A stretch of DNA of 64,000 nucleotides from Pratylenchus scribneri (lineage: Eukaryota > Nematoda > Chromadorea > Rhabditida > Pratylenchidae), in assembly GCA_030063045.1 (NCBI GenBank), contig JAQSEB010000023.1:310001-374000 (forward strand). Direction: 5' to 3'. The position numbers and the translations under genes are program-made. This document shows, in pieces, positions 1,155 through 42,709 of this stretch. The notes under the pieces were generated by a model. That model was not told the DNA's origin. It saw only the letters and a program-made list of their open reading frames with translations, and did no database searches. The stretch's first letter is position 1. Each line of letters starts with the position of its first letter.

Positions 1155-1159
1155 TAGTT

Positions 1160-3758: not shown

Positions 3759-6700
3759 ATGTTTTTGCCTTTGGCATTGGCACTGATTTCAATCCTACTT
3801 TTTTCCAAAAATTCCCAATCAAAAATTCGTCGAGAAAAACATCATCCCCCATCAAATTTGTTTGGCATTTTCCCGCTGCGTGGCGCCGTTTTCCTCCCAA
3901 ATGATGCCGAAATTGTTGGACTCACCGCACAAAATGGTTAATTTCCCGTGAATTTCTTCTTTTTAATTCCATTGTCGTCTTTTTAGAATTACCCGAAACC
4001 CATTTGGCCACAATCGCCTCAGTTATGCCCATAATTGGTGCATTCAATTACCCACCCCCTTCTTGGACTCAACTTGTCGCCGTTTATAATAACTAATCAA
4101 GGACTGAACCAATTTTAATGATTTTAGTATCAAATTAAAGAACAGACTTTTGGCTATCAAATCGATATTAATTTTATTTAAATTGGTTAAGAAATGATGA
4201 AGTTATGCCCAAAAAGAACACTGAAAATTTCGCTAATCCATAGTAAAGGTCAATTTTAAATGATTTTTTGGCCATAACTTCATCAATTCTTAACCAATTT
4301 AAATAAAATTAATTCCATTTGATAGCCAAAAGTCAGCTCTTTAATTTGATGCTAAAATCATCAAAATAGGCCCCATGCTTGATGAGTTATTTCAAACAGC
4401 GTCAAGTTGGGGCCACCCCCTCCCAAATTCATCAATTTATAATGCTCATTTTTCAGATGTGGCCAAAAGGGATGCCCACCGACTTTTCCTTCGAAAATGG
4501 ACGCCTGACCCGGATGGATGGCTCCAAATTCGGGAGTCGTCCATTCTGCATTGCCACGATCAGGGACGGGCGGCATGGGCCGCGTTGGAAGCCGTCCAAT
4601 GGACAAATGGAAGCGGGGTGCGTTAAATTACTGCATGTTTTTGCCTTTTCATATTCGTATTAGGAAGCCTAGGATTATGAATGAATTTGGGCTTTCGATT
4701 TAAGGATTAATTGGGGGAATTAATGGCCAAAATTTGGGGAATAAATTAATTGTGAAATATAGGACATTTCACTACTTGGCCAATTCTTTTGGCCATATCT
4801 CAACAAGAAAGCAACCTATTCCGAAAGGCGACATTCCTTCTGGAAGCCTGAAATTCCCTTTAAAAAGTGGCCATAAAATTTGTCTGAAAATATAAAGAAA
4901 TTTGTAAAATAATCAGTTTTTTTTCTCTTCACAAGTCAGAAAATTTGGACTTACTTAAAGACGAATTACTAACTATAAAAGGTGAAATTTATAATAAATT
5001 TTATGGCAACTTTATAGAGGGCACTTTAGGCTTTCAAATGATATATTGCCTTCCCAAATTGGCCGTTGCCTCACTGAATTATAAATAAATAAAAAAATGG
5101 CCAATTGTGAAGTCTATCCTCTCATAAATTTGCCTATATGGCTAGAAAAAAGTACTGCCCCCACGCGGGATCGAACCACGGACCTTTGGTTGGCATTTGC
5201 ATCAATACAAGACCAACGCTCTACCACTGAGCTATAGGGGCTTATTAAAGGGTCCCTTCCCTTTTTTATAAATATTCTCCTGGAGTGCGGTTCACTTCAT
5301 CTGGGCGATGACCCAACTGGGCGTCGGCGCCTGTAGCTCATTAAGGGCAAAACCAAAATTAATGATTTTGATATCAAATTAAAGAGCGCACTTCTGGCTA
5401 TCGAAAGATATAAAATTTATTTGGATTGGTTCAGTAATAGTAGAGTTTTACTTAAAAAACTATTAAATAAGATAATTTGCGAATTTTTCAGTGTTTTTTG
5501 AACACAATTCCACCAAATCTTAACCAATCCGAATAAATTTTATGTCAATCGATAGCCAGAAGTGCGCTCTTTAATTTTATATCAAAATCATCAATACTGG
5601 CTTAGTCCTTAATTAGCTATAAGCGCCGTCGTCCAGTTGACCGTTTCCCCTTGGAGAGAAGGGAATCTTCCAAATTAAATAATAAAAATTGCCAATGTTT
5701 TTAGGCGTTAAAATTTTTTTCATTGGCTCAAATGAATTTAGGCTAATTCCTCTCCCATTCAATGAAATATTCTTCAAATTCCTTCCCCTCATAATCACAG
5801 TTGGACGTGGCATTTGGCCCCGCCTGCGACTATGTTTTGGCCACCGTTTCGCGCATTCTCAGCTTCTATCGGGTGCCAATTTTCACAAATGCCGGATTCA
5901 GGTGCCATCTTTATTTTCCCTTCGTGCCATTTCATTCCCTTCGATTTCAGTGAATTTTTCATTGAACAAAAAAGCACTGCACTTTTGACCCGTGTTGGCC
6001 CTCTCCAGGACCACATCAGCCGAATGCTTGAGCTAATTTTCCTTGGAATGGGATGGACACGGGCTCGAATGTTCTATGAGAAGCAATTTTGGGCCAGCGA
6101 ATTGCATGAGGCCGGATTCTGCAAATTGTTGACAAATGTTGGCGGGGAAATTGAATGAGGGAAAATTGGAATAGTTCTTGCCCATTTAGGATGGATATTT
6201 ATAATAATTTGCAGAAAAAAACATTGGTTTTTGGCAAATAATTTAACGAGGAAAAAGCCGATTTGAGAAATAATATACCATTTTAAAGATCTGAATCTGA
6301 ATCTCCTCTGCAAAAATATTTAAAAATTTTTATTCTAAATTTATTTTGAATCAATTAAAACCTTCTAAATAAAAACAATTGAGATAATATTAATTTTGCG
6401 AAAAATTTTCGTGTCGAAAAATATTATATTTTTGAGGGCATATAACTTGGCCCTAACTAGGGGTTTAGGGCCAGGGTTAGAGGTTCAGGGCAGGCATGGG
6501 ATTAGGGACTAACAAGGGCTAGGGGTTAGGGAATCTTAAAGAAGTTTGATTTGGCCAAGTTATATGGCCTCAAAAATATAATATTTTTTGACACGAAAAG
6601 TTTTCGGCAAATTCACTGTTTTTCGGCAAATTAAATGACTGCCAAAATAATTCGCGTTCAGCTGAGAATCTTTTCATAATCAGTCAAAATTTTTTATATA

Positions 6701-7019
6701 GATATTTTGTAGAAGTAAATCAGACCTTTAAAATGATATATTGCCTTCTAAGATTGGTTGTTGCCTCGTAGAGCTATGGGGCAAAAACCTGACCAAGGTT
6801 CTCAAGCAGTACAATTTCCCTTTTTCTAATTTTTCGGGAAATATTCCTAAATATTTTCGGGAAATATTCTTATATTTTTTCAGGGCCTCTACGCACGTAC
6901 GGTGATGAAAAGATGGCAACTGGAAATCAGCCCCGCAATTGTGCCCTCCTCATCCAAATCCTCCACCATAAAATGGGCCCAGAAGGATTTGGCCGAAATT
7001 GTGGGCGCAAATTTTGGAG
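3759..7019 (+). CDS. receptor guanylate cyclase, alternative ligand-binding cassette A
   Basis: Six exons: 3759-3936, 3987-4037, 4457-4617, 5801-5901, 5951-6137, 6884-7019; 814 nt, 271 codons plus 1 nt. It begins with a signal peptide (MFLPLALALISILLF), then the first strand of an ANF-receptor domain (GAVFLPND..MPIIDVAKRDA). Exon 4 has FGPACDYVLATVSR, the GPxCDY signature of natriuretic-receptor-like guanylate cyclases. Exon 5 continues with LTRVGPLQDHISRMLELIF. The final donor 'ggag|gtggg' is phase 1, the phase of the trunk acceptor at 30963. Splicing there would give a 1268-aa receptor. There is no membrane span or cyclase between here and cassette B. Unspliced, the frame runs about 50 more codons to 7171. 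Other readings: a secreted decoy, or a truncated duplicate. Junctions were chosen by eye. Confidence 0.75.
4070..4410. mobile_element. family 2 foldback MITE in cassette A intron 2
   Basis: Outer arms are 'caacttgtcgccgtttataa' and 'caaacagcgtcaagttgg'; inside them, 'aatcaaggactgaaccaatt' mirrors 'catcaaaataggcccc'. The centre has mirrored blocks reading 'gacttttggctatcaaat' and 'atttgatagccaaaagtc'. The element is about 340 bp with no reading frame. Seven copies occur in the window, often in introns of this locus. Confidence 0.8.
4783..5095. mobile_element. family 1 foldback MITE in cassette A intron 3
   Basis: The left arm 'attcttttggccatatctca' and the right arm, with 'gctttcaaatgatatattgc', are both recognisable. 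The last 20 bp of the right arm are decayed. Confidence 0.75.
5156..5241 (-). tRNA. tRNA-Thr(TGT) with a 14-nt intron
   Basis: On the minus strand the 5' acceptor GCCCCTA pairs with TGGGGGC, with one G-T wobble. The D arm is GCTCAGTGGTAGAGC. The anticodon stem TTGGT/ACCAA encloses loop CTTGTAA, giving anticodon TGT. A 14-nt insert TTGATGCAAATGCC sits just after position 37, the canonical place for tRNA introns. The T arm CGTGG-TTCGATC-CCGCG has one non-Watson-Crick pair. Six T's follow the gene on the minus strand (5145-5150), a Pol III terminator. The gene lies antisense inside intron 3 of cassette A. Confidence 0.92.
5328..5628. mobile_element. family 2 foldback MITE in cassette A intron 3
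   Basis: The mirrored inner blocks 'aaagagcgcacttctggcta' and 'tagccagaagtgcgctcttt' are perfect complements. The outer arms are eroded compared with the 4070-4410 copy. Confidence 0.75.
6405..6612. mobile_element. family 3 foldback element
   Basis: Arms 'gtgtcgaaaaatattatatt' ... 'gagggcatataacttggcc' and 'ggccaagttatatggcctc' ... 'aatataatattttttgacac' are inverted copies around a G-rich centre ('aggggtttagggccagggtt'). A second, more decayed copy is at 32250-32425. This copy is in cassette A intron 5. Confidence 0.7.
6690..6795. mobile_element. family 1 MITE fragment (right arm only)
   Basis: 'cctttaaaatgatatattgc' and 'tagagctatggggcaaaaac' match the right arm of family 1. No left arm is found upstream. 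It lies in cassette A intron 5. Confidence 0.65.
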
Positions 7020-7176
7020 GTGGGCCAAAAGAAAGATTGATTGATTGTGCTCATTTTGTGCTTTGTGATTTGTCTTTTGTAATTGGCAAAAATTTGGAAA
7101 AATTATTTGCAAAAAGTGCGAGCAAAAAGTGCGAACAAAAAATATTAACAAAATATGGCGAAATGGTATAAAGTAT

Positions 7177-7497
7177 CTGAAGTTTTTAGGCCATAGATCA
7201 GCGAGGCAAGGTCCAATTTTGGAAGGCGTTATAACATTTTAAAGCCAAAACTGACCTCTACAAAGTGGCCTAATTAAATTTTATGAGATTCAATCTTAAA
7301 GAAAGTTTCAAGTCTTTGAATTTATTAAACCCTACTTTGTTGATGATTGGGGAAAGCCATTTATTTTACAAATTATTTTAAATTTTCAAAAATTAATTTA
7401 GCCACTTTTTAGAGGAAATTTAGGGCTTTTAAATGACTTATCACCTTCCAAAATTGGTTGCCTTCTTGTTGAGTTATGACCAAAAGAACAGCGCTAC
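7177..7497. mobile_element. family 1 foldback MITE, full copy
   Basis: Left arm with 'aggccatagatcagcgaggc' and right arm ending 'gttgagttatgaccaaaaga'. It lies just after the final donor of cassette A. Confidence 0.75.
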
Positions 7498-8651
7498 TAA
7501 ATCGTTTTCTATTTAATAAAATAAAGAGACATAAATGTAAATTATAAATTAAATTATGCAATTTTTCAAGTTGCGAATTTTGTTGAATTGGGCCTTTGCA
7601 TAATTTGTTCCTTCCCATTCCAATTTTGCGCATTCAAATTCCATCAATAATCCATCCCCTTTCCTTCTTATTAATCCATTTTCGCACTCTTTCCCTTCCA
7701 ATCATCACATCATGGCAACCGGCGGCGGAAATTGCTGCCCCCAAAAATGGGAGGCATTGGAGGGGGAAATATGGGGGAAATGTGATGCTACGGGCGGCGA
7801 TGGCGATGGCGGTCGAGACATGGATTAGCGGGGACCGGGGAGTCGAGTGGGGGAAGAAAAGGGGGGAAAGCGGGCAACCATTTTGGGCCAAAAACGACCT
7901 CGCCATTATCAAAGTCTTCTTCCTTTCCACCTATTTGTGGCGCGATTCGTCGAACATACAACAAATCCCCCGGAAAATGTGCCACCATATGTTCCCAACA
8001 GTTCAAAATATTCACTCCAATTTTATTCGTCAATTTTTGCCATTTATTCCCTTTTGAAGTTGAATATGGGAAGAGAAGGGGGGGGGGGTGGAAAGTGGCC
8101 GATCATTTCGGGCCAAAATGACCCCGCCACTATCAAAGTCTTCTTCCTTTTCCTCCACCTATTTGTAGAGCCTTTCGTCGAACATACAACAAATCCTTCC
8201 AAAATGGATCCCCCTTCATCCCTTTATTATATATTCCCAACAGTTCAAAATATCCACTCTGCAATTATTCGCCAATTTTTGCCATTTTCTCCTTTTGTGT
8301 TTTGCCGCCACCTCCACACATTTCCGTAGTGAGTGGCGGATGGCTTATGGCTTTTTGGCCTCAAATTCTTGGTCTTCGCCTTTCCCTCTCTGTAGCGGAA
8401 TGTGCGTGATTGATGACAGCCCCCAAAAAGTAAGGGGGAAAAGGCAACCAAACCCAATGGCCAACAAAGGAGCCACAAAAGCGGCAAAGAGCACCATATC
8501 CCATAAGGGGCCAATGATGACTGGACTGACTTCGATTTTGCCCTAGCCTGACTTTCTCTTTGATGGCATTTTTACTGAATTTTGCGAGAAATCGATCCTC
8601 CCTTTTTGCCAACTTTCTTCTCCTTCAAAGCCGCTAATTCATTACCTAGAC
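7498..8651. other. spacer with a roughly 200-bp direct repeat pair; no gene accepted
   Basis: Segments 7859-8057 and 8083-8305 share 'tcaaagtcttcttcctttt', 'cgtcgaacatacaacaaatc' and 'cccaacagttcaaaatat'. They read openly in one frame but look like a tandem duplication of non-coding DNA: composition is biased, there is no recognisable motif, and frame is not kept between the copies. Confidence 0.6.
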
Positions 8652-8968
8652 CGTTCTTTTGGCCATATCTCAGCGAGGCAATGGCCTATTTGGGAAGGCA
8701 ATATGCCATTTGAAAGCCAAAGCCCTAAATATCCTCTAAAAAGTGGCTAAACAAATTTTTGAAAATTTAAATCATTTTGTAAAAATAAGCGGCTTTTCCT
8801 CATTCAATTAGAAAATTCAAGTTTATTTCACTCAAAGACATGAAACATTTTCAAAATTGGATTTTCTTAAAATTTAAAATAGCCACTTTATAAAAGACAC
8901 TTTTGGCTTTCAAAAGATATATCGCCTTCCCAGATTGATTATAGCCTCGCTGAATTACGGCGCTCCAG
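8652..8968. mobile_element. family 1 foldback MITE, full copy
   Basis: Left arm 'ttcttttggccatatctcag', right arm 'ggctttcaaaagatatatcg'. The outermost right end is eroded ('gaattacggcgctccagg'). Confidence 0.75.
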
Positions 8969-9860
8969 GAATAGCTCAGGTACTTGGGTGCCAGTTGAGC
9001 AAATATAAATTTAAAATAAAAAAATTTCCTCGCCATTTTTTTGCATCCATTCCAATTTTAATTTTATTGATATTCCCCAATACCAATTAGCCTCCTCTCT
9101 GCCTCCTTTCCATTTTAATTCCCACCAAATTGGCACTTTTATTTACCTGCCATTTCGCCAAAGTCTAATTCCAAGCGCAAATATTGACATATTCGCCAAT
9201 TTTTGCTTCCAAACTTTGCGCAGCCTTTCTTCTCCTTACCATCGCCTTTTTCACTCTTTTCCGCCACTTTTGACGCCAATCAATTCATCCATTTTCACAT
9301 TTCATTGGCTCGGCACACAAAACCACAAAAATGCCTTCGCATTTTCCCTTCCACTCCATTTCATTTCCTTACCCCCGGCCACTGCTTTCTTTTGGCTTTT
9401 GTCCCCTCCTCTCCACCACCATCACAATTCCCCGTAAAAAGAATAATTCCATTCATTGCCCTATTTTTCCCCTTTCTTTGGTACGAAGGTGCCAATGCCA
9501 ATGTACGGAGGCCAAGGCGGAATTTGCGCCAAGTCAACTTTTTCCCAGCGCCATTTTCCACCAATATTTGCCTCGCTTTTCACCGTCATTTTCATGCTGA
9601 GAATTTGCTGCTGCTGTGGGTTCCATTCTTTCTTCCCAGCAAATATTTTTGCATTTGCAAAATTAAACTGGTGCAATTTTCCCATTCCCTCATACCGAAA
9701 CAGAGGCCATTTCCGAGTAAAAAAACATGGGGAATGTTTTTACCTTTGATCCTATTTTATCTGAATTGTGGCCATTAAAATATTCAATTCTGCTTTAATT
9801 TGAAAAAATTCTATTGATAAAAATTTAATCAAAAGGCTAATTAAATTAAAAAAATTACTC
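8969..9860. other. pyrimidine-rich spacer, no gene seen
   Basis: C+T-rich on the plus strand from about 9050 to 9780. The open frame at 9203-9778 has a composition expected from pyrimidine bias (Phe, Ser, Pro, Leu, His) and no matching splice or domain signals. Confidence 0.55.
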
Positions 9861-9867
9861 TCCTTTA

Positions 9868-9945
9868 AGGGGAATCGAACCCACAACCTCAAAGAGTAAA
9901 GCGGAGGTATTAAACCTCTAAACTACGCGAATCGACTAGGAGGCT
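9868..9945 (-). tRNA. tRNA-like sequence, degenerate (pseudogene or SINE head)
   Basis: The minus strand contains an A box (TAGTTTAGAGG) and a perfect B box (GGTTCGATTCC) at tRNA-like spacing. The presumed acceptor ends do not pair over 7 bp and the anticodon stem is irregular. I therefore do not assign an amino acid. Confidence 0.5.
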
Positions 9946-9954
9946 GCTTATCTT

Positions 9955-10297
9955 TTTACTTATATGTGAAAAGGGGGATATAGGCTAATTTTGAAATTGC
10001 CGTAATTTGCCAATGGAACGACTTTGGGAGATAAAAATGGCCATTTAGTTAGGCGAAGGCATTCTATGGACTAAAATTAGGCAAAATTTCAGCAAAAGTG
10101 GCCTCCACATTGAGAAGAAGACTTTTCCCTTTTTAACATATATCTGAAATGTGGATATCACAATTTTGATATGGCTATAATTTCCGAGGCGAACAACTCC
10201 GGCAGATAAAAATTACGGTTTAGGCGATGGCATTCTATGGACTAAAATTAGGCAAAAATTTCATCAAAAGTGGCCACACTTTTAAGACGAAATGACT
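9955..10297. repeat. two tandem copies, about 170 bp each
   Basis: Both copies contain 'ggcattctatggactaaaat' followed by 'taggcaaaa', then 'aaaagtggcc', and end with a short 'gaagacttttccc'-like stretch. The 'aaaagtggcc' core is shared with family 1, so this may be a decayed derivative. Confidence 0.7.
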
Positions 10298-10687
10298 TCC
10301 CTTGTGATGAGAACTATGGGTTTCTCTGCAATTTTGCATTTGCAAAAAGCAAAACCAAGACCGAAAATTTCTCACCTACTACAACTTTTTCTCCGGTCCC
10401 CATTTTTTATTTGCCCTTTGTTCACAGCAAAAATTGATGAGGAAGTGGAAAATTGGTCGGCAGACTTTTTGGACACTGCGGGGATTCCTTCTTTCCTTCT
10501 CCTTCCTTCTCCCTTTTTTTCTTCTTGCGCATGAATTCCTTCCATTTTGCTGGTTTGGATTATTCTCCATGGAAATGGTTTGCAGTCCACAAAATGATAA
10601 CTTTTCCCCATCGATTCCACAAGTCACAAAAATTAATTTAAAAAAGGACAAAATAAGACGATTGAGAATCGTCGATTGAGTCTGAGC

Positions 10688-10998
10688 CATGCTTTTGGCC
10701 ATAAATCGAGAAGGAAGCAACCAATTCAGAAAAGCCGTATACCATTTGAAAGCTCAAAATATTCTCTAAAAAGTGGCTAAATTAATTTATTTGAAAATTT
10801 TAAAGATTTTGTAAAATAAACGACTTTTCCTACTTTTCCTCGCAAGTTAGAAAATTCCGATTTATTAAACTCAAAGACAAATAACTTGTATAATTCTTAA
10901 AAGATTTCAAAACCTTTTTTAGAGGATATTTTTGGCTTTAAAATTCTATATCGCCTTCTCAGAAAAGCCAAGCCTCGCTGAGCTACGAGTAAAAAACT
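10688..10998. mobile_element. family 1 foldback MITE, full copy
   Basis: Left arm 'cttttggccataaatcgaga', right arm 'tatatcgccttctcagaaaa' plus 'gcctcgctgagctacgag'. It starts an unusual tandem series (next entry). Confidence 0.75.
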
Positions 10999-11575
10999 AA
11001 TGCAATTACTAAATCAGCAACATTCATTGAGTTTGAGACATTCAAAGACGAATAACTACTATTAAATGAAAAAAATGAAATTTCTAAAAATTTTAAGGCC
11101 ACTTTAAGAGTACCCTTTAGGCCTGCAATGAGGTTTTCTATCGCCTTCAAAGATTGGTTATTGCATTGCTGAGCTACGGGTCAAAAATTAATACAAGAAC
11201 ACAATTGAAGGCCCTCATTTAAAGACAAATAAATAAATTAAAAAGGTGAAATTCGTAAGAATTTTTTAGGCAATTTTTTAGAGAATACTTTAGGCTCTAA
11301 AAAGGTAAATTGTCTTTCCAGATTCTTTATTCCCTTATTATCGTATAGACCAAAAACTAATGGGGGTACTCAATCGATCGCAAACATTGGGTTTGAGATA
11401 TTCAAAGACGAATAACTTTGTTACAATAGTGAAATTCATTAATAATTTTAAGGCCATTTTTAGAGCATATTTTGTGCTTTAAATAGGTATATATAGCCTT
11501 CCAAATTTGGTTAACGCCTCGTTGAGCTATGGGTCAAAAACTAATGCGCGAACTCAATCGGCAGTACTTAATTGT
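10999..11575. repeat. tandem series of family 1 right-arm segments
   Basis: Three further right halves follow the 10688-10998 element at about 170-180 bp spacing. Each reads in order 'gagttt/gggtttgagatattcaa', 'agacgaataact', 'aattttaaggccac/atttt', 'tatcgccttc..gattggtta' and 'gagctacgggtcaaaaa'. The element's right half has become a local satellite. Confidence 0.75.
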
Positions 11576-12115
11576 CTTCTCCTTCAATTAATCCCCTACC
11601 CGGAAAAGGGGATGATGGCGCCAATTTGTAAATATGTCCAAATATGTATATTTTATGCCAAACTTATGGTTTGGCTTCCCTTCTAAAAATATGGCCATTC
11701 CTTCCATTTTGTCGTCAATGATGATGATGATGCCCCATCTGCTTCTCCCTCCCACTTTCGTCTCCCTTTTGTCCACCCCGCCAGCGGAATTTGTGGCTTT
11801 GGTGTCCTTTGGGGCCAATTCCTTCACATCCATTTTCCCCTTCTCCTTCTTTTGCCATTTTCTTGCCCCTTCTCTTTTGCTTGTGTCCAATTCCCCAGTG
11901 TCAGTGGCCCAATGGCCATATTTCGCTGCTGAAGCCGCCTCCATTTTCCCACCAACCCAACCGACCATTCTCCCTTACTTCTTTTCTGCAAATATCAACT
12001 CACATTTTTACCCCCCAACTTTCCCCCTAGTTAACCCTCACCCCAACAAATTCGGCCTTTGCATAATTCTTTCCCCTTAACCCAGCGAAATTTGAGCCCA
12101 ATTTGCGCGCCTTCC
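11576..12115. other. pyrimidine-rich spacer, no gene seen
   Basis: Open frames on both strands reflect C+T bias (for example 11634-12080) and have no recognisable domain. Confidence 0.5.
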
Positions 12116-12116
12116 T

Positions 12117-12660
12117 CTTCTTTTCCTATTCCCTTTTTGTATTCAAATTTGCGCATCTTTTTCGCCAACTTTTTCCGGTACTTATCCCTTATTAGAGTCA
12201 ACCCTAAATTTCGCCCAAATTAGTCAAAGATTTTAATAAGCCCTAAAACAGTATTTTGCCCCTTCTTTCCTATTCCTTCAAATTTGCGCATCTTTTTCGC
12301 CAACTTTTTTCGGTACTTATTCCCTAAAAGTCTTCCAATTTTCTTCTAAAATTAGTTATAAGATTCTAATAAGCCTTAAAACAATATTTTCCTATCATTT
12401 TAGGATTATATGGAAAACAAAAAAAAAAACAAAAATTTCAAAAATTTTAATTTTTTTTCAAAATTTGCTGATAGATAATCGATAAGTAAACATTTCCCCT
12501 TTCTTCTAAAATTAGTCAAAGATTCTAATAAACTTTAAAAACAGTATTTTCCCGCATTATTTTAAAATCATAAATGAAAAATTAAAAATTTCAAAATATT
12601 TTTTTTAAAAACTTCTGGCAGATAATCGATAACTTTTCCCACCAAATTTATTTTCGAGCC
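12117..12660. repeat. diverged tandem repeats, about 140 bp
   Basis: 'caaatttgcgcatctttttc' plus 'gccaactttttncggtactt' occurs twice (from 12147 and 12277). 'gattntaataagcc.taaaacagtatttt' occurs three times (about 12230, 12360, 12510). The last unit is degraded to AT-rich DNA. Confidence 0.7.
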
Positions 12661-13315
12661 AAAAATTATTTATCCAATAGGCTGCATCCACACAAAATTA
12701 GGCTAATTTTCCCCTCCTCATCAAAAATAAATATTTGCCAATTTCACCCAAAAAATTCATTTTTTCCTTTAAAAATTTATATCCAATTTTTGGCAATTTT
12801 AACATTTTTTCTATAAAAATATTTTTTGAAATATTTTTTTACCATCCAATTTTTGCCAATTTGGCCCGAATATATTGAAGGGAATAAATTCACTTTTTTT
12901 GGCCGAATTTTCTCAATATTCCCTTTTGGCCATTCCGCCTCATTCTCCTATAATAAATATTTTCCACCCAAATCCCCCCCCCCCCCCCAAAAAAAAAAGT
13001 CCATAAAGCCATCATTTTCCACTGCAAAAAATGCGAAGAACAATTTTCCATTCCCTAAAAATTCCCTCAAAAAAAATATTTTCTTTTATGTAATTCCCGA
13101 ATGGCGAATAAATAAACACACAAAAAATAGGCCCTTCACTGATTTTTTATTCCCAAGCTTGGGACCAACTTTTGGACCCAATTTTTTTTCTGGCCATTTT
13201 CCTTCCTCTTTGCACATTCGCCTCTCTGGAAAATAAGCACATAAAAAAGCTGGGTCCAATAAAGCCGCCGCCCTCACCCCTTTCTGCAGCCTTGCGAAGG
13301 GGACTTTGAGCCTGA
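12661..13315. other. AT-rich spacer with homopolymers, no gene seen
   Basis: Contains a C-run followed by an A-run at about 12977-13000. I see no gene or recognisable repeat other than simple sequence. Confidence 0.5.
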
Positions 13316-14077: not shown

Positions 14078-14180
14078 GCATAGTTTTTTGGCAATATCTC
14101 AACAAGGAAACAACCAATTTGGGAAGGCGATATACCGTTTGAAAACCAAAAGTGCCCTCTAAAAAGTGGCTTTTTCTAAT
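14078..14180. mobile_element. family 1 MITE fragment (left arm only)
   Basis: 'ttttttggcaatatctcaac' through 'gtgccctctaaaaagtggct', with no matching right arm before the next element. Confidence 0.7.
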
Positions 14181-20100: not shown

Positions 20101-20105
20101 ATGGG

Positions 20106-31600: not shown

Positions 31601-34600
31601 CATTTAATTTAGTCAATATTAAAATTTTCACATCTTTTTTCAGGGCGAATATGTCTTCATCAACATTGACGTGTCCACTGGGTAAGTTTTTTTTTACTTT
31701 TTGCAAAAATTTGGGACAGTTTTGCACTCCATTCATTCCATTCCATTTCCTTCCCTTCCATTCTCAAAAGCTGCTTTTTCCTTTTCTCAATTCCCGGAGC
31801 CCTTTCCTTGGCCCATCCATCCATTTTTCCATCTATCTAGTAAATTGGCCCTGCTTTGTTTGTTACAAAGATATTTGGATGGGATGGGCGGATGGACGCC
31901 CCCCTCTAAAAGCTCAAAATTGAATTTGCAAAATAGAACGAAAAAAGGGGCAAGGGAAAAGCAATTCAAGCGGAAAAGGGAAAAGGAAGAGGATTGAATA
32001 GGGGAATGAATGGTTTGTGTTGAATTGGTGGGGGGAGGTCACGAGCTTTTTTGCAAATAAAAAAGTTACTCTCTTGACATAAAAGTTTTGCAAAAATTTA
32101 CAAAAAATGGAGAAATTTTTACAAGAAAATTGATGTCATAAAAATTGTAAAAATACAAAAAATAACAAAAAAAAAATTAGAAAATTTTCAAAAAAAGTTG
32201 ATTTTAAAGGGAAAATTAATTTAATTTGCCAAAAATTTTTCTTATTGAAAACAATCAGTATGGGCCATATAACTTGGCCATATCAAAAGTGTTGGGTTTA
32301 GAATAGGTTTGGGAGGTTAGGGCTGGCATGTAAGTATTAAAGTTTAGGATACGGAGCATACAGCATAAATTAGAGAAACCTGATTTGGCCAAGCAATATG
32401 GCCTCAAACACACGAAAGGATTTTCGGAAAATTAAATACTATTCATTTAAAAATTGCCCCTGAGATGCTGAGATACCGTAAATTTTCTATTAGTGGTCCA
32501 TGGGATACTATTTTTTCAGAGTCTATCTAGGATGTACTATTATTAGAGAATGGGCTACTATTTTTAAGAGAACCTATAAATGGTCTCTTATTAGAGAAGG
32601 GGTCTCCTATTAGTAGAGAATGGGATACTAATAGAGAATTTAAATAAATGAAAAATTTTGCAAAAAAAAATAAAAAAAAATAGAAAAATTTTACAAGAAA
32701 TTTGATTGAAAAAATTATTTAAATTTATTGCAGTTCGCATGCCGAAAAGCCATGGCTACGCCAAAATGACACATCCAGTTCGGCAGAGGAAAATGAGAAG
32801 GCCAAAAGAGCATATCGAGCACTGAAGACAATTTCGTTGCGCCGATCCGATTTGGATGAATACAAAAATTTTGAGGCCAGAGTCAAGGAGAGAGCCGAAA
32901 AGAAATACAATTACTCAAAAAATACGGGCAAAGAATATGAGGTGGGCATTGCATTATCGCTTGGAGGCCAACTTGACGCCGTTTAAAATAACTAATCAAG
33001 GACGGAATCAATTTTGGATGATTTTAGTATCAAATTAAAAAGCAGACTTTTGGCTATTAAATAATATTAATTTTATTTAAATTGATTCAGAAATGATGGA
33101 GTTAAGGCCAAAAAACCATTGAAAATGACCTTTACAATGGATTGGAGAAATTTACAGTGGATTTTTGAGCATAACTTTATCAATTTTGAACCAATTTAAA
33201 TAAAATTAATATGATTTGATAGCCAAAAGTCTGAGCTTTAAAATGATACTAAAATTACCAAAATTGGCTAAATCCCTGATGAGTTATTTTAAACGGCGTC
33301 AAGTTGTCTACCACCAGCAGGAAAAGAGGATGAATGAAATTTTTGCCAATAATCTCTTAAATTTCAGATGAATAATTTTATCAGCGCCTTTTACGATGCA
33401 GTGCTACTTTATGCGATTGCCTTGAATGAAACATTAGCCGAAGGATTGGACCCAAGAAATGGGAGGAATATTACCAGCAAAATGTGGAATCGAACATTTG
33501 TTGGTTAGTGATGGAATAAAAATTATTTTTTTATTATTTTTTATAAAGGAATCACCGGAAATGTGAGCATTGATCACAACGGGGACCGTTATTCTGATTA
33601 TTCCCTTTTGGATTTGGATCCGGCTCAAGACAAATTTGTGGTAAAAAATTGAAATTTTAAAAAATTTCGAAAATTTTTAGAAAAATTTCAAAAAATTTTA
33701 AAAATTTTAGAAAAATATTAAAAAATTTTTAGCTAAAATTTTTATTTTTTTTTAAATTTTAGAAAAATTTTTAAAATTTTCAAAAAAATTTTAAAAATTT
33801 TCAAAAAAAAATAAAAATTTTCAAAAAAATTTTAAAATTTTCAAAAAATTTTCAAGAAATTTTCAAAAAATTTTCAAGAAATTTTCAAAAAAGTTTCAAA
33901 ATTTTCAAAAAATTTTAAAAATAATTTTGAAAAATTATTTAAACATTTTAAAAATAAAAAAATAATAATAAATTACTAGGAAGTGGCCTACTATTCCGGT
34001 GCATCCAATGAGCTGAAACAAATCACAGATTTCCATTGGGTCGGTGGAAAACCACCAAAAGATACACCGTACGTCACAAAATATTTTAAAATAAATAAAT
34101 AAACATGGAATTGAAGGGTTTGCGGTTGGGATCATTCAAAATGCCCCGAGGGCTATCCGGCACACGTGTACGCATTGATGGGCCTCGGCATTGTGGTGGT
34201 CATCTTGCTCATTGGGTTCGCCTTCTTCTACAGGTATGTTTGAAATTTGAATATTAAAAAAATAAAAAAAAAAACAAAATAACGGTTCCATCCTTTATTT
34301 TGGGACAAATTTTGGGGCTCACTCACTGGTTCGTCAGCTCTGGAATTTTTTTGGACTAAATTCCCACTTTTATTCATAACATTTATAATTTCTACCGCAT
34401 ATTTCTAGATGAAGTAATTCATCCAAAAAGTGATAGAATTTGCAGTAATTAGAACAAAAAATTGTTCAAAAATTACAGTATTCGAACAGAAAAATGATCA
34501 AAAATTACAGTAATTTAAACAGAAAATTAGTAAAAATTACAGTAGATGTACAAACAGAAAAATGATCAAAAATTACAGTAATTTAAACAGAAAATCAGTA

Positions 34601-37600
34601 AAAATTACAGAAAATGTACAAACAGAAAAATGATCAAAAATTACAGTAATTTAAACAGAAAATTAGTAAAAATTACAGAAAATGTACAAACAGAAAAATG
34701 ATCAAAAATTACAGTAATTTAAACAGAAAATTAGTAAAAATTACAGAAAATGTACAATTTTAGAAGAAATACATTATTTCTAAATTTATTTTAATTTGTA
34801 GGCGATATCGTGCCGAAGCAGAGTTGGCAAAAATGACATGGAAAATCAGATGGGATGATTTGGACGGAGAGGAATTCCGGCGTGAAAAGAAAAAGAAAAG
34901 ATTGCAAAACAGCAATTCCAAGATTAAACCTGAAATGGTGGAACAATCCGAGGCCCTTTTGCTTCGTTCCAACAGCAGAATATCCATTGGATCGGATAAG
35001 GTCAGTCAATTAGGTTAAAAATTGAGAGGAAAAATAATAAAAAATTTACCCGAATTCACCCCAAAATCCAACACACCTAAAATCCATACAGAGAATAATT
35101 TTTCGAAATTTTTCAATTGACCTACGACTTTGCCTTAAACACACTTAAGACTCAGTCAATCCTTCCATAGCTAAACCTTATTCTTTAGCACTAAAAGTGT
35201 TCTCTTTATGGATTTTTTGGTTGCCCACAATTATCCGAATATTTTATGCCGATTGATTGCCTTTTAAAGAAAATGGGAAAAGGAATTAAGGAATATTCCT
35301 ATTCATTCCCCTAAAAAATTCCTATTCATTTATCACGGCTTGTTCTTATTTATTATTTTTTTTTGCTGCTTTAATTCACCCACCAGCCAAGCCACCCCAC
35401 GCATTTTTCACTCAAATTTGTACAGATAGCCGAAGAAGAAACCGACGAATTGGCAATGATGCAAATGTACCAAAGCCAAAGGGCACGTCTGGTGAGCCAC
35501 CACCATTCCCCACACACCCATCATTTCAACTACCGTATTTTGTTGATTCGCACTTTGTTCCCCCTTCCCTTCGATATACCATATTCGATTAACACACAGA
35601 GACCCAATCATCTCCTCTTTGCCCTCCGGCTTCACTCACAATCAGCAGTCATTCGCTTTCCCCAATTCCTCCTTTGTTGTTCCTCTATTCTGTTTTTTTT
35701 TTCAGTTTTTTTGATATTAAAACAACAATTTATGTACCCAAGCTAACATTTTTGAAAAGTGCTCTAAGCTCTAACACGCATTTCATCTAAAAAAATCATT
35801 TAATCCAAACCTGTTTTCATCAATTTGCAAGGATTAAACCCAAAAAAACCAATGATTTCGGATACGGATTAAAAAACAATGAAGTTACGATTTAGCTTAC
35901 CCCTAAAAACAATTACGATAATATAAATTTATAAAAAACCCAAATAACGACAGTCATTTTTAGTCAACTTTCAATGAGATTAAACCCGAAAAAACAATGA
36001 ACATTTCGGAACTAAACCATTAAAACCAATTTCAAAACATCTAAATTTATAAATGATAGCAAAAACAATGGTTTAAATTGGAAGTTTTAAACGATTTTTT
36101 GCGATTAAACCCGCAAACATACTTTATTTATAACCAAATTTGCTAATTCCCATTATCCATCCTTCTTCCCATTCACTTTTTGGTCCTTTTATTCTGTCTT
36201 TTGGTACATTCAACAAACAGGAATTTGTGAGCAAAACTAACATTTTGAATATTAGATTTAAAAATATTGTCACAAATAATATTGTAAAAATTACTCACAA
36301 ATATGTAAATAACAAAACAAATTAACAATTAATTTAATTATTTATCTTTAGTTTAATCCCCTTTTGTATTTTAGAGGAGTTCATCATCCGGCGCCACACG
36401 AAAAATCTCTGCCATCATTGATCGGAAATTTAGCATTTTTACACGGAAAAAATCATCGCCATGCGACCATAAACAGCCACCACTCCCCGAACAAAATCAT
36501 GTTGGCAATAAATATGAGGGGGAAGCGAACAATTTGTCATCGCCTTCATATTCATTGAGTAATTCAAACAAAAAGAAATCAAGTGGAGAGGAGGATTTGG
36601 AAATGAGCAATTCGGCTGGTGGCAAAAAGTCCATCGTGTCTTCGACAAAGAACCGAAAATTCTCATTCAGTGGATACAGCATAAAGGTGGGGAGAATGGT
36701 GGATTATTAATATTGATATTGCCAAAAAACATTGAAAATAAGAAGGTTTAAGAAAGGGTTTGCCACACATTCACAAACCAAATATACCTAAAATTGGATA
36801 GAGCTGATCAAGATGGACGCATTGAATGGTCTATAATTTGTTATGGTTTGGTCAATAATTAAGGGGTATTAAACGGTTTAAACACATTTTGGTTTAATGG
36901 TTTAAAACTAAATTAGAATTGGTTAAACCCAATACCCAATCCAAAATATACTAAAATGATGCGTCTTGTAGAGGATTGGGATTTGATAATTTCAAATTTT
37001 TTAGTAAATTAAATATTCCCGTAGAGAAAAATGGATTATTTAATAAAATCTCAATTTTCTGCAGAGCGGCGGTTCCGTTGAGACCATCCAACTGCAAAAT
37101 AATGCACAAATATTCACAAAAACGGCAATGTACAAAGGCACAATGGTTGCGATTAAAATGGTCAATTTGGACCTGAAGAAATACCCAAAATTGGAATTGC
37201 CTCGCTCTTTGCTCATTCAATTGAAGGAAATGAAGGATTTGCAACATGACCATTTGACCAGATTTTGTGGCGCCTGTGTGGATGCACCCAATTATTGCAT
37301 TGTGACAGAATATTGTCCAAAGGGATCGTTGGAGGACATTTTAGAGAATGAGAAGGTGGGTTTTCCTGATGGCTGAGTGCATTTTCAAAATAAATATAGG
37401 ATGTCAATTTATAAAATTGAGTAATTTATCCATAACAACCTTCCAAATCGAGTTTTAGTCAGACTGAATTATTTCTAATTTGATGAAATATAAACCAGGC
37501 GGAATTATTCTAAGCGAAAACACAAAACAGGCGGAATTATTCTAAGCGAAAAGACAAAACAGGCGGAATTATTCTAAGCGAAAACACAAAACAGGCGGAA

Positions 37601-40600
37601 TTATTCTAAGCAAAAACACAAATAGGCGGAATTATTCTAAGTGAAAACACTAATAGGCGGAATTATTCTAAGCGAAAACACAAAACAGGCGGAATTATTC
37701 TAAGCGAAAACACAAAACAGGCGGAATTATTCTAAGCGAAAACACAAAACAGGCGGAATTATTCTAAGCGAAAACACAAAACAGGCGGAATTATTCTAAG
37801 CGAAAACACAAAACAGGCGGAATTATTCTAAGCGAAAACACAAACAGGCGGAATTATTCTAAGCGAAAACACAAAACAGGCGGAATTATTCTAAGCGAAA
37901 ACACAAAACAGGCGGAATTATTCTAAGCGAAAACACAAAACAGGCGGAATTATTCTAAGCGAAAACACAAAACAGGCGGAATTATTCTAAGCGAAAACAC
38001 AAAACAGGCGGAATTATTCTAAGCGAAAACACAAAACAGGCGGAATTATTCTAAGCGAAAAGACAAAACAGGCGGAATTATTCTAAGCGAAAACACAAAA
38101 CAGGCGGAATTATTCTAAGCGAAAACACAAAACAGGCGGAATTATTCTAAGCGAAAACACAAAACAGGCGGAATTATTCTAAGCGAAAACACAAAACAGG
38201 CGGAATTATCCTAAGCGAAAACACAAAACAGGCGGAATTATTCCAAGCGAAAACACAAAACAGGCGGAATTATTCTAAGCGAAAACACAAAACAGGCGGA
38301 ATTATTTTAAGCGAAAACACAAAACAGGCGGAATTATCCTAAGCGAAAACACAAAACAGGCGGAATTATTCTAAGCGAAAACACAAAACAGGCGGAATTA
38401 TTCTAAGCGAAAACACAAAACAGGCGGAATTATTTTAAGCGAAAACACAAAACAGGCGGAATTATCCTAAGCGAAAACACAAAACAGGCGGAATTATTTT
38501 AAGCGAAAACACAAAACAGGCGGAATTATCCTAAGCGAAAACACAAAACAGGCGGAATTATTCTAAGCGAAAACACAAAACAGGCGGAATTATTCTAAGC
38601 GAAAACACAAAACAGGCGGAATTATCCTAAGCGAAAACACAAAACAGGCGGAATTATTCTAAGCGAAAACACAAAACAGGCGGAATTATCCTAAGCGAAA
38701 ACACAAAACAGGCGGAATTATTCTAATCGAAAGCACAAACAGACGGAAAGACCGAATTAGCGAAATTAATTTTATTATTCATCAAACCATTTTTTATTAA
38801 CATGCTAGAAAAATGTTGATTTTTTGATATGAAAATTAATTTTACAATTTTGAATGATTTTATGGAATTAAATTAATAAATTTTACAGATTAAATTGGAC
38901 AAAATGATGAAATATTCACTGTTGCATGATTTGGTCAAAGGAATGCATTATTTGCATGGCAGTTTAATTCGAACCCATGGACGGTTGAAAACATCAAATT
39001 GTGTGGTGGACAGTCGATTTGTCCTAAAAGTGACCGATTTTGGTTTGGCCGAGCTGCATGCAATGGAGGAGACAAAAGAGGACGATGTGGAATCGCATGC
39101 CTTCTACAGAAGTAAATTTATTAAATTTAGCCATTTATTCACAATTTTTGCCCTTTAGAAAAACTTTGGACCGCCCCCGAATTGCTCAGGGACCCAAATG
39201 CGCCAGTGCAGGGCACACAAAAGGGCGATGTATACAGTTTTGCCTTAATTCTCCACGAAATGCTCTACAGGAAAGGGGCCTTCTACAGGGGCGAAGATGA
39301 ATGCCCAAGTCCAAAAGGTGAGGCCTGTGGCGGAATTGTTGAAAAGGAAAATATTTAATTTTGCCAAAAAAGGATCATTTGATTATGTTTTGGCTGATGT
39401 TTAACCAATTCTAACTTAGTTTTAAACCATTAAACCAAAATGGGTTTAAACCGTTTAATACCCTTTAATTGTTGACCAAACCAAAATGGGTTTAAACCGT
39501 TTAATACCCTTTAATTGTTGACCAAACCAAAATGGGTTTAAACCGTTTAATACCCTTTAATTGTTGACCAAACCAAAATAGGTTTAAACCGTTTAATACC
39601 CTTTAATTGTTGACCAAACCAAAATTGGTTTAAACCGTTTAATACCCTTTAATTGTTGACCAAACCATAACAAATTATATACCATTCAATGCGTCTTCAG
39701 CAGTTCTATCCAATGGTATATTTGGTTTGTGAATGTTGGACGTACCCATGCTTGAACCATTATAATTATTTAGGCATTTTCTGTTTTTATCGGCAAATTA
39801 AATACTATTTAATTATATTAAAATGTTTTTTTGTACAGAAATACTCGACCAACTCATCCATGTGCCTCACAGTGAAGCGGAATTGTACAGGCCAATTATC
39901 CCGGATTCACCACCCGTTGATGATACACCGGATACCGTAAGAAAATTGATTGATTTGATGATGGCCTGCTGGAATGAGAGCCCAAATGGACGGCCAGATT
40001 TCAGCATGATCCGGAAAATTGTTCACACATTGAACAGGTAAATCAAATTAATTCATTAAATAAATTAATATAAAATAAATTAATTAAATAAATAAAAATA
40101 AATAAAAAAATTAAAATAAATAATTACCAAATAAATAAATATTAAATAAATAAAAAATAATAAATAATATAAATACTTAAATAAATATATGTATATGTAT
40201 TAGATTAATATTATTATATTAGATAATATATTATATTAAATAAATAAATATTAAATAATTAAATATTAAATAAATAATATATTAAATAAATATATATTAT
40301 ATATTAGATTAATATATTTTATATTAGATAATATATTATATTAAATAAATAAATAAATAAATATTATATATTTGTATTATATTTGATAAATCTAAATTAT
40401 TTTAAATAAATAAAATAAAAAATGCTTAAGGGAGAATGAAACATCAAATCTGGTGGACAATTTGCTCAAACGCATGGAACAATATGCAACAAATTTGGAA
40501 GGATTAGTCGAGGAACGGACACAGGAATATTTGGCAGAGAAGAAAAAAGTGGAAGAACTTTTGCATCAGCTGCTGCCCCCGAGCATTGCTGATCAAGTTT

Positions 40601-42709
40601 GACATTGCGAAAAGAGGAATTTATTATAATAAATTTAATTTTGCAGTTGATTTCTGGCAATCCGGTGCAGGCAGAGGCCTATGAAAGTGTGACCATCTAT
40701 TTCTCGGACATTGTCGGTTTCACCGCCCTTTCGGCCTTATCCACACCAATGCAGGTATGGTTGATTTGATTTGAAGGGAATTATATTTAATTTGGCGAAA
40801 AAAACATTGAAAATGGTGAAAAAAAAATATTGAAAATGGCGAAATATAACGGTTTAACGGTTTGTTCTAGACCCCTAAACCTTATACCCAATTGATAGAT
40901 CTCGTCAAGATGCGTCGATTGGCATATATTTTGTCGTGGTTTGATAAAAAAATTAAGGGTTTTAAGCCACTTAAACCATTTAATGCGTTTTGGTTTAAAA
41001 CCAATTAAACCATGACAAATTAATTATATACCAATCGAAGCGTCTTGACGAGCTCTATTCAATGGTATTTGGTTTGTCAATTTTGGGCAAACGACTAAAT
41101 CGTTATAAACTTTTCGCCATTTTCAATACTCTTTTCGCCATTTTAAATATTTCCCTTTTGTTCTTTGGGAAAATTTTTATAACATTTTTTATTAATAAAA
41201 AATTCATTTTTGACTGAAAACCCAATCAATTAAAAATGATTTTACCCACTAGGCATTCGGATCATGCCCCACAAAAAACATATATTTTTGAAGATCTTTC
41301 CAATTTAAATATGGTATTATCCGATACCGTAATCCAGCCACTAATTCTTACAAAATTACCATAATATTTTTAACCTTAAAATTCATTTTAAAAATTTTTA
41401 CCAAATTCATTTAAATTTGAATTTTGGAATATAATGAAAAATGAAGGGAATTCATTTCATTTGATTTAAAGGTTGTGGCCTTGTTGAACGATTTGTACCT
41501 GGCCTTTGACAGTGTTGTGGACAATTACAAGGTGTACAAAGTGGAAACAATTGGCGACGCATATATGGTCGTGTCCGGGTTGCCCGAGAGGAGGGATGAC
41601 CACGCCTCACAAATTGCTCAGGTTTTTAATTGGAAAATTTTGATTTATTTTATTCTAATTATCAGGTTAACGCTAGTTTTACTTTTTTTTAACCTGTGTA
41701 TTGAGTTAAGGCTTAGATTAGGGCTATAGGTTTACATTACTCCTCTGGGGAAATCCAAAAGGATGGCAGCACAAAAAATTGGGTCACAGTTTCGAACCCT
41801 TTTCAGCAGGAGGCTTTCAATCAAATAGCTTAAAGCCTTCCCAAATTCTTTAGTGCCTTGTTGATGAATTATGGCAAAAAGAACAACCCAATATATAGAA
41901 ATCCGATCGTTTTCTATTTCGATGAAATGGGGGCGAAGTGCATCATCATCATATGGGGGGAATTAGTTGGGATGGGATAACATTAGGAAGGATACAGGAT
42001 AGCAATTAGCCGAATTACGAATATGAACATATCAGCAGAAAGCCATGTTCCTCTCTACAAATTGGCCATTTAAAATTTTATATGAAATTCAAATTTTTAA
42101 AAATTGAATTGTTATTTTTTGTTCTTTGGGACTAACATTTCCAGACGAAATACAATATTTCGAACCAAAAATACTTTACCATTTTTTGTATTTTTCTGAC
42201 AATTCCCTCCCTAAAAATGTCAATTTCTTTTCTCCCAATTTAGATGTCATTGGCACTGTTGCATAAAGTGAAGAATTTCACCATAAGACATAGGCCAAAT
42301 GAGCAGTTGAAGCTGCGCATTGGAATGCATTCTGGGTCGGTGGTGGCCGGTGTTGTTGGCTCCAAAATGCCCAGGTATTGCCTGTTCGGCGATACGGTGA
42401 ACACGTCCAGTCGAATGGAAAGCAATGGATTGCGTAAGAAGCGAATAAAAGAATTAATTTAATTTAATTTTGATTTTTAGCCCTTCGAATTCATGTTTCA
42501 TCCATTACGAAGGATATTCTCTGCCGGGACGCGGATTTCAATTTGGAGCTACGCGGCGAAATTGAAATGAAGGGGAAGGGCAAACAGACGACATATTGGC
42601 TAAAGGTGAATTTGAAGGGGATTTTACGGAAAAAAATAATCCAATTTTTAACATATTCTAGGGCTATAAAGATGTTCAAGTTCCATATTTTGGACCTGAA
42701 TTTTTGTGA
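28690..42709 (+). CDS. gcy-28: receptor-type guanylate cyclase (cassette D plus common trunk)
   Basis: 23 exons, 1269 aa. Cassette D: 28690-28995, 29831-30031, 30511-30820. Trunk: 30963-31039, 31644-31681, 32734-32941, 33368-33503, 33549-33640, 33980-34068, 34117-34233, 34802-35000, 35426-35491, 36375-36686, 37065-37355, 38889-39111, 39159-39317, 39839-40037, 40431-40596, 40647-40754, 41472-41621, 42244-42433, 42481-42605, 42662-42709. Signal peptide, ANF-receptor domain to about residue 500, membrane span (about 505-524, [14 protein letters not shown]), Ser/Lys-rich juxtamembrane segment (614-717), kinase-homology domain (718-1008; VAIK kept, HRD replaced by THG, DFG kept), dimerisation coil, then cyclase. 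FSDIVGF and ETIGDAY give both metal-binding Asp; Glu about 1124 and Cys about 1195 specify guanine. It makes cGMP at the plasma membrane on ligand binding. Every junction keeps frame. gcy-28 is a family-level assignment. Confidence 0.93.
29058..29378. mobile_element. family 1 foldback MITE in cassette D intron 1
   Basis: Left arm 'attcttttggccatatctca', right arm 'tgttgagctttggccaaaag'. A second copy follows 45 bp later. Confidence 0.8.
29423..29735. mobile_element. family 1 foldback MITE in cassette D intron 1, second copy
   Basis: Arms 'ctttatgccatagctcaaca' and 'ttgttgagatatgaccgaaa'. The two adjacent copies are too different for a recent tandem duplication. Confidence 0.78.
30080..30455. 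mobile_element. family 2 foldback MITE in cassette D intron 2
   Basis: Outer arms 'ggtcaacttgatgccgtttg' and 'gcgtcaagttggctcgacga', inner mirrored 'gacttttggcaatcaaatga' and 'atttgatagccaaaagtcag'. It fills most of the intron. Confidence 0.8.
31085..31560. repeat. AT-rich simple sequence, 'gaaaattagattagaaaaa' type
   Basis: Intron sequence made of degenerate 'aaaattagattagaaaaaac' units with no fixed period. Confidence 0.75.
32250..32425. mobile_element. family 3 foldback element, decayed
   Basis: 'gggccatataacttggcca' and 'ggccaagcaatatggcctca' are inverted, with a G-rich centre as in the 6405-6612 copy. It lies in the trunk intron 31682-32733. Confidence 0.6.
32967..33307. mobile_element. 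family 2 foldback MITE in a trunk intron
   Basis: Outer arms 'ccaacttgacgccgtttaaa' and 'tttaaacggcgtcaagttg' pair perfectly. This is the best-preserved pair of termini for the family in this window. Confidence 0.85.
33645..33965. repeat. low-complexity 'aaaattttcaaaaaatttt' run
   Basis: A degenerate short-period A/T repeat fills the trunk intron between 33640 and 33980. Confidence 0.8.
34433..34758. repeat. tandem repeat of about 66 bp, 4-5 copies
   Basis: The unit runs 'cagaaaaatgatcaaaaatt' + 'acagtaatttaaacagaaaa' + 'ttagtaaaaattacagaaaa' + 'tgtacaaa'. It lies in the intron after the membrane-span exon. Confidence 0.88.
36785..36940. mobile_element. family 4 element, single-unit copy
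   Basis: Contains 'aaattggatagagctgatca', 'gatggacgcattgaatggtc', one 46-bp-type unit ('gggtattaaacggtttaaac') and the distal 'aactaaattagaattggtta'. It shows what the family looks like before unit amplification. It lies in the intron before the kinase-homology domain. Confidence 0.7.
37496..38752 (+). repeat. 32-bp minisatellite array, about 39 copies
   Basis: Same 32-bp unit as at 17108. This is the longest array in the window, filling most of a 1.5-kb intron inside the kinase-homology domain. Variant units ('attatcctaagc', 'attattttaagc') alternate with the standard unit in the distal half, which suggests multi-unit expansions. Confidence 0.97.
39395..39770 (-). mobile_element. family 4 element with a 46-bp array, about 5 units
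   Basis: The unit on this strand is 'ccaaaatgggtttaaaccgt' + 'ttaataccctttaattgttg' + 'accaaa' (46 bp). The edge sequence 'accattcaatgcgtcttcag' + 'cagttctatccaatgg' matches the edges of other copies. It lies in the intron 39318-39838. Confidence 0.85.
40045..40420. repeat. AT-only simple sequence ('aataaataaatatt')
   Basis: The intron between exons ending 40037 and starting 40431 is almost entirely A/T in short degenerate repeats. Confidence 0.85.
40868..41110. mobile_element. family 4 foldback element, no amplified array
   Basis: The left arm 'attgatagatctcgtcaaga' + 'tgcgtcgattggcatata' and the right arm 'tataccaatcgaagcgtctt' + 'gacgagctctattcaatgg' are inverted copies. This shows that family 4 is itself a foldback element. 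Confidence 0.7.
41815..41890. mobile_element. family 1 MITE fragment (right arm)
   Basis: 'tagcttaaagccttcccaaa' and 'gttgatgaattatggcaaaa' match a decayed right arm, in the intron 41622-42243. Confidence 0.45.

Follow-up and report, generated by a model that had tools for sequence, protein, structure and literature searches.

Organization of the locus

The DNA analysed here is a stretch of 64,000 nucleotides (nt), hereafter the window, from the genome of the tylenchid nematode Pratylenchus scribneri. It corresponds to bases 310001-374000 of contig C23 in an assembly of 227 Mb and 276 contigs. On its plus strand lies a locus related to the receptor guanylyl cyclase gene gcy-28 of Caenorhabditis elegans, in which four cassettes, called heads A, B, C and D, precede a single common part, called the trunk. 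Every exon of the heads and of the trunk was re-derived and the joined products were then translated. Unless otherwise stated, the exons given below are supported by exon models and by comparison with two other copies of the locus, carried by contigs C59 and C100 of the same genome.

Head A spans 3759-7019. Its first exon (3759-3936), present in C59 and C100, carries the start codon and encodes a signal-peptide-like N-terminus. It is followed by exons 3987-4037, 4457-4617, 5801-5901, 5951-6137 and 6884-7019, the last ending with the phase-1 donor 7019 and encoding the tail VGANFG, which resembles the alpha tails described below. The whole head matches the gene models P0121-P0123 of other nematodes. 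The third intron of this head contains a minus-strand tRNA gene (5156-5241), and the block of at least 95% identity that surrounds it is retained in C100.

Head B begins with an exon (15059-15583) that carries the start codon and encodes signal-peptide-like and low-complexity stretches, followed by exon 16054-16309. The initial annotation, made from the sequence alone, gave this head four exons and an isoform of 1381 amino acids (aa). The last exon that it proposed has a different length in each genomic copy (242, 241 and 240 nt), which points to a hidden intron. This 62-nt intron (17696-17757) separates a newly split-off exon 4 (17674-17695) from exon 5 (17758-17915), which ends with the phase-1 donor 17915, while the end of exon 3 moves from 16908 to 16904 (16779-16904). 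The corrected head B includes FHEQRYDATNPSIPYGECYLLM, matching FHDQKHDTTNPSLPYGECYLLM in the Ditylenchus model; YDATNP, encoded by exon 4, resembles HDTTNP of P0121. Homologues P0121-P0123 are compatible with the corrected version only. Both these homologues and the base differences between copies rule out the four-exon version. Head B has 362 aa in five exons and its isoform 1359 aa.

Head C (25150-26936) consists of exon 25150-25533, with the start codon and a signal-peptide-like stretch, and exon 26378-26936, which ends with the phase-1 donor 26936; P0001 and the C. elegans protein P0028 have heads of this type. Head D (28690-30820), of the type found in P0004, P0009 and P0031, includes exon 28690-28995, again with a start codon and a signal-peptide-like stretch, exon 29831-30031 and exon 30511-30820, which ends with the phase-1 donor 30820. 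Each head therefore has its own start codon and a hydrophobic signal-peptide-like N-terminus.

The trunk comprises 20 exons (30963-42709). Exon 1 (30963-31039), defined by the exon model, carries the only acceptor, 30963, common to the four heads. It is followed by exons 31644-31681, 32734-32941, 33368-33503, 33549-33640 and 33980-34068, then by exon 7 (34117-34233), which encodes the transmembrane segment, a hydrophobic stretch judged by eye in the translation. Exons 8 (34802-35000), 9 (35426-35491) and 10 (36375-36686) precede those encoding the kinase-homology domain, namely exons 11 to 13 (37065-37355, 38889-39111 and 39159-39317) and exon 14 (39839-40037), where this domain ends. Exon 15 (40431-40596), known from the exon model, encodes the linker preceding the cyclase domain. 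This latter is encoded by exons 16 to 19 (40647-40754, 41472-41621, 42244-42433 and 42481-42605), which, like exons 11 to 14, were assigned from the exon model and Pfam. The exon model also defines exon 20, which includes the stop codon (42662-42709).

Exon 9 of the trunk (66 bases, in frame), examined by comparison of copies and homologues, has no counterpart in P0001, in Meloidogyne incognita P0003 or in C. elegans isoform d (P0022), while P0004 and P0028 do carry a piece at this position. It may be an optional exon.

The introns and spacers are rich in repeats. A 32-base tandem repeat, GGCGGAATTATTCTAAGCGAAAACACAAAACA, is found in an intron of head B (17108-17405), in the intron of head C (25781-26177) and in a trunk intron (37492-38748), and recurs on the opposite strand at the end of the window (63707-64000). 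Another dispersed tandem repeat (46 bases) is found, in one orientation or the other, at 39432-39667 (trunk intron), 49512-49837, 59554-59927 and 60462-60743. Furthermore, families of repeats of about 300-350 bases (e.g., 3350-3680, 4065-4415, 5300-5640) occur at many places in introns and spacers, in the window as well as in both other copies. Some of them match one place in both orientations, and these families resemble miniature inverted-repeat transposable elements.

The junction between heads and trunk

Any head can be joined in frame to the trunk. No internal stop interrupts the isoforms with heads A, C and D, which measure 1268, 1311 and 1269 aa. The codon formed at the junction is G or A followed by TT, giving V or I. 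According to Pfam, the heads are the first part of the ANF_receptor domain and the trunk enters this profile at position 180 of 353; the trunk then encodes the kinase-homology and cyclase domains (PF01094, PF07714 and PF00211, all above the cut-off).

The rebuilt exon models agree with the initial annotation on the four phase-1 donors, on the single trunk and, except for head B, on the numbers of exons (6, 2 and 3 for A, C and D) and the lengths of the isoforms. The signal-peptide-like starts of the heads also hold, but their description as the membrane-distal part of the ANF-receptor domain has to be widened, since the trunk enters the profile at position 180.

The closest solved structures, both for head A plus trunk and for head D plus trunk, are those of the natriuretic peptide receptors NPR-C and NPR-A. 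On the NPR-A chain 1dp4, the equivalent of the junction lies near residue 207. In the contacts given by a docking study (PMC9699598), those of NPR-A with the hormone (59 to 189) are all on the head side, whereas a few contacts of NPR-B and NPR-C (338-365) are on the trunk side. This suggests that a change of head would replace the larger part of the hormone-contact surface but leave some of it in place.

Genomic copies and selective constraint

The genome contains three copies of the locus, in the window, in C59 and, more diverged, in C100, each with one trunk and all with the order A-B-C-D-trunk. A genome search that scored the best candidates only found no fourth site for the trunk ectodomain. 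All 16 head exons are present in both C59 and C100. The 20 trunk exons are also found in C59, while the C100 contig stops at trunk exon 13, so that 12 trunk exons can be checked there. Every checkable splice site retains its GT or AG across the copies and no stop codon was found.

In exons, the heads are 94-97% identical between the window and C100, versus 83-93% for other aligned sequence. The ratio of nonsynonymous to synonymous divergence (dN/dS) between copies is 0.069-0.111 for B, 0.031-0.049 for C, 0.013-0.046 for D and 0.003-0.009 for the trunk, with synonymous distances of about 0.13-0.27 for these four parts. For head A it reaches 0.117, a value that comes from a single comparison, the window and C59 being identical in the exons of this head. 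These ratios, far below 1, and the absence of stops indicate that the heads are not decaying; together with the intact frames, they rule out pseudogene heads.

Positions 1-17405 of the window are 98.3% identical to C59, and from head B onward the synonymous distance between these two copies is about 0.2. This pattern would fit a recent replacement of the left part of one copy by that of the other.

Identity of the locus and its relatives in nematodes

A search with the trunk matched 248 proteins, and the trunk matches discussed here were drawn from the 120 of them that were listed. The trunk ectodomain is 83% identical to that of C. elegans gcy-28 over the full region and does not exceed 55% identity with the non-nematode matches listed. 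Among the matches listed, its nearest relatives (93-98% identical) are the ENA sequence P0001 and those of Meloidogyne, Globodera and Heterodera. By these comparisons, the locus is gcy-28, a receptor guanylyl cyclase gene of the natriuretic-peptide-receptor type. A phylogeny published in 2006 (PMC1435932) has a natriuretic clade without a C. elegans orthologue, and its main text carries no mention of gcy-28.

Two of the heads have counterparts in C. elegans. Head B is of the type carried by isoform d (P0022), with 47% identity, and head C of the type carried by the 1276-aa P0028 (isoform c), with 51% identity; in the head tree described below, window B and C fall in the same clades as these heads. 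The trunks of isoforms d and c are equal at 975 of 975 aligned residues and differ by two indels of 1 and 13 residues. D-type heads occur in C. briggsae, C. bovis and C. tropicalis, and isoform a of C. elegans might conceivably have such a head. The N-termini of P0022 and P0028 are consistent with the gcy-28.d and gcy-28.c primers given in PMC9249223. As described in that article, both cDNAs were amplified and separate gcy-28.c and gcy-28.d promoters were used. Since two heads and two promoters are already known in C. elegans, this kind of arrangement is not new, and the window enlarges it to four heads.

Several gene models of other nematodes hold successive heads. Those of Aphelenchoides besseyi and A. 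fujianensis contain B, C and D in sequence and that of C. tropicalis contains C then D. Furthermore, P0001, a contig of 4811 nt from ENA, contains head C and the trunk in a single reading frame, whereas the window takes 17.5 kb for the same protein. Given this difference in length, P0001 is almost certainly a cDNA, and hence a transcript of a relative in which head C is joined to the trunk.

A search with head A retrieved proteins from Ditylenchus dipsaci (62% identity), Halicephalobus (52%) and Bursaphelenchus okinawaensis (51%), as well as a Haliotis protein (25%). In the three nematode models (P0121-P0123), A is followed by B, and these B parts fall inside the B clade, which makes head A a conserved neighbour of B. 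The Bursaphelenchus A-B model and the D-plus-trunk model of that nematode both lie on contigs 11618144 long. A search with the Halicephalobus head A, which covered proteins of about 454-1444 aa and would miss a short stand-alone head, recovered the same three relatives only. No C. elegans counterpart of head A was found among the listed matches of the trunk search or in the head A searches.

Two proposed classes of heads in protostomes

Mollusc and insect proteins among the listed trunk matches carry two kinds of heads, called here alpha and beta, both of which end at the same junction. In seven species (Argopecten, Mya, Mercenaria, Biomphalaria, Haliotis rubra, H. rufescens and Helicoverpa), a beta-head protein is accompanied by at least one alpha-head protein, and the trunks of the alpha and beta proteins within a species show 0 or 1 differences per 830-1008 aligned residues. 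The single difference, where present, is the junction residue, I versus V, as expected if the head exon supplies the first base of this split phase-1 codon. In six of these species, the alpha and beta proteins are isoforms encoded by equally long contigs, whereas the two Helicoverpa proteins are on different contigs. Crassostrea angulata follows the same pattern, judged by the tail only, its alpha-like head being short and outside the tree.

A maximum-likelihood tree was built from 95 rows, i.e., the four heads of the window, 22 proteins from nematodes and 60 from other sources, hand-picked from 124, and nine hand-cut segments of fused models; proteins without a full head and additional nematode species of the same head type were left out. 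After this tree had been seen, an 85-row tree was obtained by dropping 12 long or gappy rows and adding NPR-A and NPR-C. The 95-row tree groups the nematode A heads with 24 alternative heads from molluscs, insects, one horseshoe crab and others (28 rows, support 100/98), and places nematode B, C and D together (100/100) among the ordinary, or beta, heads. The alpha clade is also recovered in the rooted 85-row tree (98/95), where A is sister to the alternative heads of insects (99/89, versus 43/58 with 95 rows) and where the beta heads do not form a single resolved clade. Forcing all insect heads together is rejected (p 3.6e-5, 95 rows).

Hidden Markov models (HMMs) of the 24 alpha and 36 beta non-nematode heads, with the classes defined by the tree, give a comparable picture. 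Leave-one-out tests placed 60 of 60 heads as in the tree. The nematode A heads were all assigned to alpha (4/4, by 17.0 to 29.2 bits) and the other nematode heads to beta (31/31), while the difference between alpha and beta scores is nearly neutral for NPR-C (-3.2) and beta-like for NPR-A (-46.5). All of the 36 non-nematode beta heads end in R, versus none of the 24 non-nematode alpha heads. A CK motif was also considered as a mark of the alpha class and discarded: it occurs in 10 of 28 alpha rows and in none of the 67 beta rows, but 16 of the 28 alpha rows have CH, CF or CY like beta.

These data argue firmly for two old head classes in insects, and the existence of two such classes in molluscs is well supported. 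Nematode head A is likely to be a member of the older alpha class shared with molluscs and insects, while the tree indicates a nematode origin of B, C and D. Two or more classes of heads are probably older than the protostome radiation.

Proposed functioning and origin of the multi-headed gene

It is very likely that this gcy-28 locus has four alternative heads, each of which can be joined to one trunk, the head being most likely chosen through the promoter. The cassettes, all with a start codon of their own, would supply the first half of the ligand-binding domain, and any of the four donors could be spliced to acceptor 30963, giving one head per transcript. The shared trunk would provide the second half of the ectodomain, the transmembrane segment, the kinase-homology domain and the cyclase. 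Since a start codon and a signal-peptide-like N-terminus are present in every head, transcription most likely starts from one of several promoters, presumably four; the promoter used would set the head, and the last exon of the cassette where transcription starts would be spliced to the trunk, including in the case of A. The heads, which would hold most of the hormone-contact surface, could thus place different sensors, with putatively different ligands, on one output, the production of cyclic GMP (cGMP) by the predicted cyclase domain. Mutually exclusive internal cassettes of the Dscam type were also considered. They are ruled out, as each head has its own Met and signal-peptide-like stretch and no shared upstream start exon exists.

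What the initial annotation proposed about the nature of the gene is supported in part. It described one gene with four open heads and one body, as an enlarged form of C. elegans gcy-28, and heads B and C are indeed orthologous to isoforms d and c, which share one trunk; the four heads are free of stops, keep the checked GT and AG in three copies and show dN/dS far below 1. Comparison of the locus across nematodes, which it recommended, revealed that the order B-C-D or A-B recurs in gene models of other species. It also ascribed the divergence of the heads to old duplications. As B, C and D form one clade and A groups with an older class, the four probably do not stem from a single local series, and an origin of all four by simple local duplication is disfavoured.

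On balance, the comparisons lean towards a gcy-28/NPR-type gene that has been multi-headed since before the split between Ecdysozoa and Lophotrochozoa, with alpha and beta cassettes, one fixed phase-1 junction and one trunk, head A of the window being the nematode survivor of the alpha class. Heads would then have multiplied differently according to the lineage, alpha in molluscs and beta in nematodes.

Several observations weigh against one or the other of these proposals. The trunk is absent from all three annotated head A models (P0121-P0123), and no nematode protein joining A to the trunk was found in the full lists of the head A searches or among the trunk matches listed. Two internal donors of head A are weak (GTTAAT and GTTGGC). 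Spacer conservation lends only weak support to separate promoters: non-exonic identity between the window and C100 is 88.6% upstream of C and 92.7% upstream of D, but does not rise upstream of B (83.0%, versus 83-85% within the A, B, D and trunk regions), and as it reaches 91.9% within the C region, the higher values before C and D may be regional. It is therefore conceivable that only B, C and D provide alternative 5' ends for gcy-28, while A is a separate small gene for a secreted half-domain with a decoy or binding role, or a head that has ceased to be joined to the trunk. This appears quite unlikely. In each of the three genomic copies, head A ends precisely where the trunk is joined, with the matching phase, and it is not decaying. 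Furthermore, half an ANF-receptor domain would, judging from Pfam, miss the strands supplied by the trunk, and heads of the alpha class do join the trunk in molluscs and moths.

The age of head A calls for similar caution, since a long branch (2.2-2.3 changes per site) leads to the four A heads and this head was seen in four nematodes only. P. scribneri and the three others belong to clade IV; if the head is old, the other clades have either lost it or are not annotated for it. Forcing all nematode heads into one clade gives borderline values in the approximately unbiased (AU) test, with a p-AU of 0.073 for 95 rows and 0.043 for 85 rows with the outgroup. Head A could thus be a fast-evolving local duplicate of B, C or D, drawn towards mollusc and insect heads by long-branch attraction, all the more as its position beside insect heads is poorly supported in the 95-row tree. 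This is rather unlikely in view of the support of the alpha class as a whole, of the HMMs, which are free of nematode sequences and still separate A from all other nematode heads, of the alpha-like tail VGANFG of A in a position where all non-nematode beta heads end in R, and of the lower p-AU and stronger grouping with insects in the 85-row tree. As for an assembly error that would have collapsed or misjoined several cyclase genes, each of full length, which the initial annotation gave as an outcome that would undermine its proposal, dense repeats could favour it, but it is extremely improbable. Three contigs with the same order, separated by the synonymous distances given above, exclude a collapse; other nematodes hold heads in the same order, and the genome search, which scored the best candidates, found the trunk ectodomain at three places only.

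Comparison with known systems

As far as could be found, head A and its grouping with alpha heads are new, while the principle of two heads and two promoters was known. Among the matches listed in a search of open-licence literature, no published account was found that goes beyond the C. elegans gcy-28 isoforms or that describes head classes across phyla. C. elegans already varies the head of this one receptor cyclase gene between cells. If the multi-headed design is general and very old, annotations of molluscs, insects and nematodes undercount their receptors, since each head would be a different potential receptor within one gene. Ligands could then be searched for class by class with a fixed read-out. 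The locus would also offer a clean evolutionary case of a domain in which one half is exchanged and the other hardly changes, as the dN/dS of the trunk indicates.

The closest known system is C. elegans gcy-28 itself, the same gene, with B- and C-type heads, one trunk, the same junction and two promoters, whereas the window has four heads including A. The isoforms of molluscs and insects annotated as 'atrial natriuretic peptide receptor 1-like' (X2, X3...) have a related trunk, to which alternative heads are attached at an identical position; one of these head classes is probably that of head A. Molluscs have several alpha heads per gene (e.g., X2, X3 and X6 of Mercenaria), whereas in nematodes beta heads have multiplied (B, C and D) beside one alpha head. 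The vertebrate NPR-A and NPR-C are homologous to the ectodomain over both head and trunk, NPR-C being the best solved match for A and for D with the trunk. They are encoded by separate genes and are not known to have alternative heads. If the proposal is true, protostomes would have diversified their ligand receptors by changing heads within one gene, and vertebrates through separate genes.

In clustered protocadherins, several alternative 5' units can each be joined to one constant region. The locus described here fits this logic of a single constant region. It differs from them by its heads: these are few and have strongly diverged, and each forms half of a single fold and is encoded by several exons.

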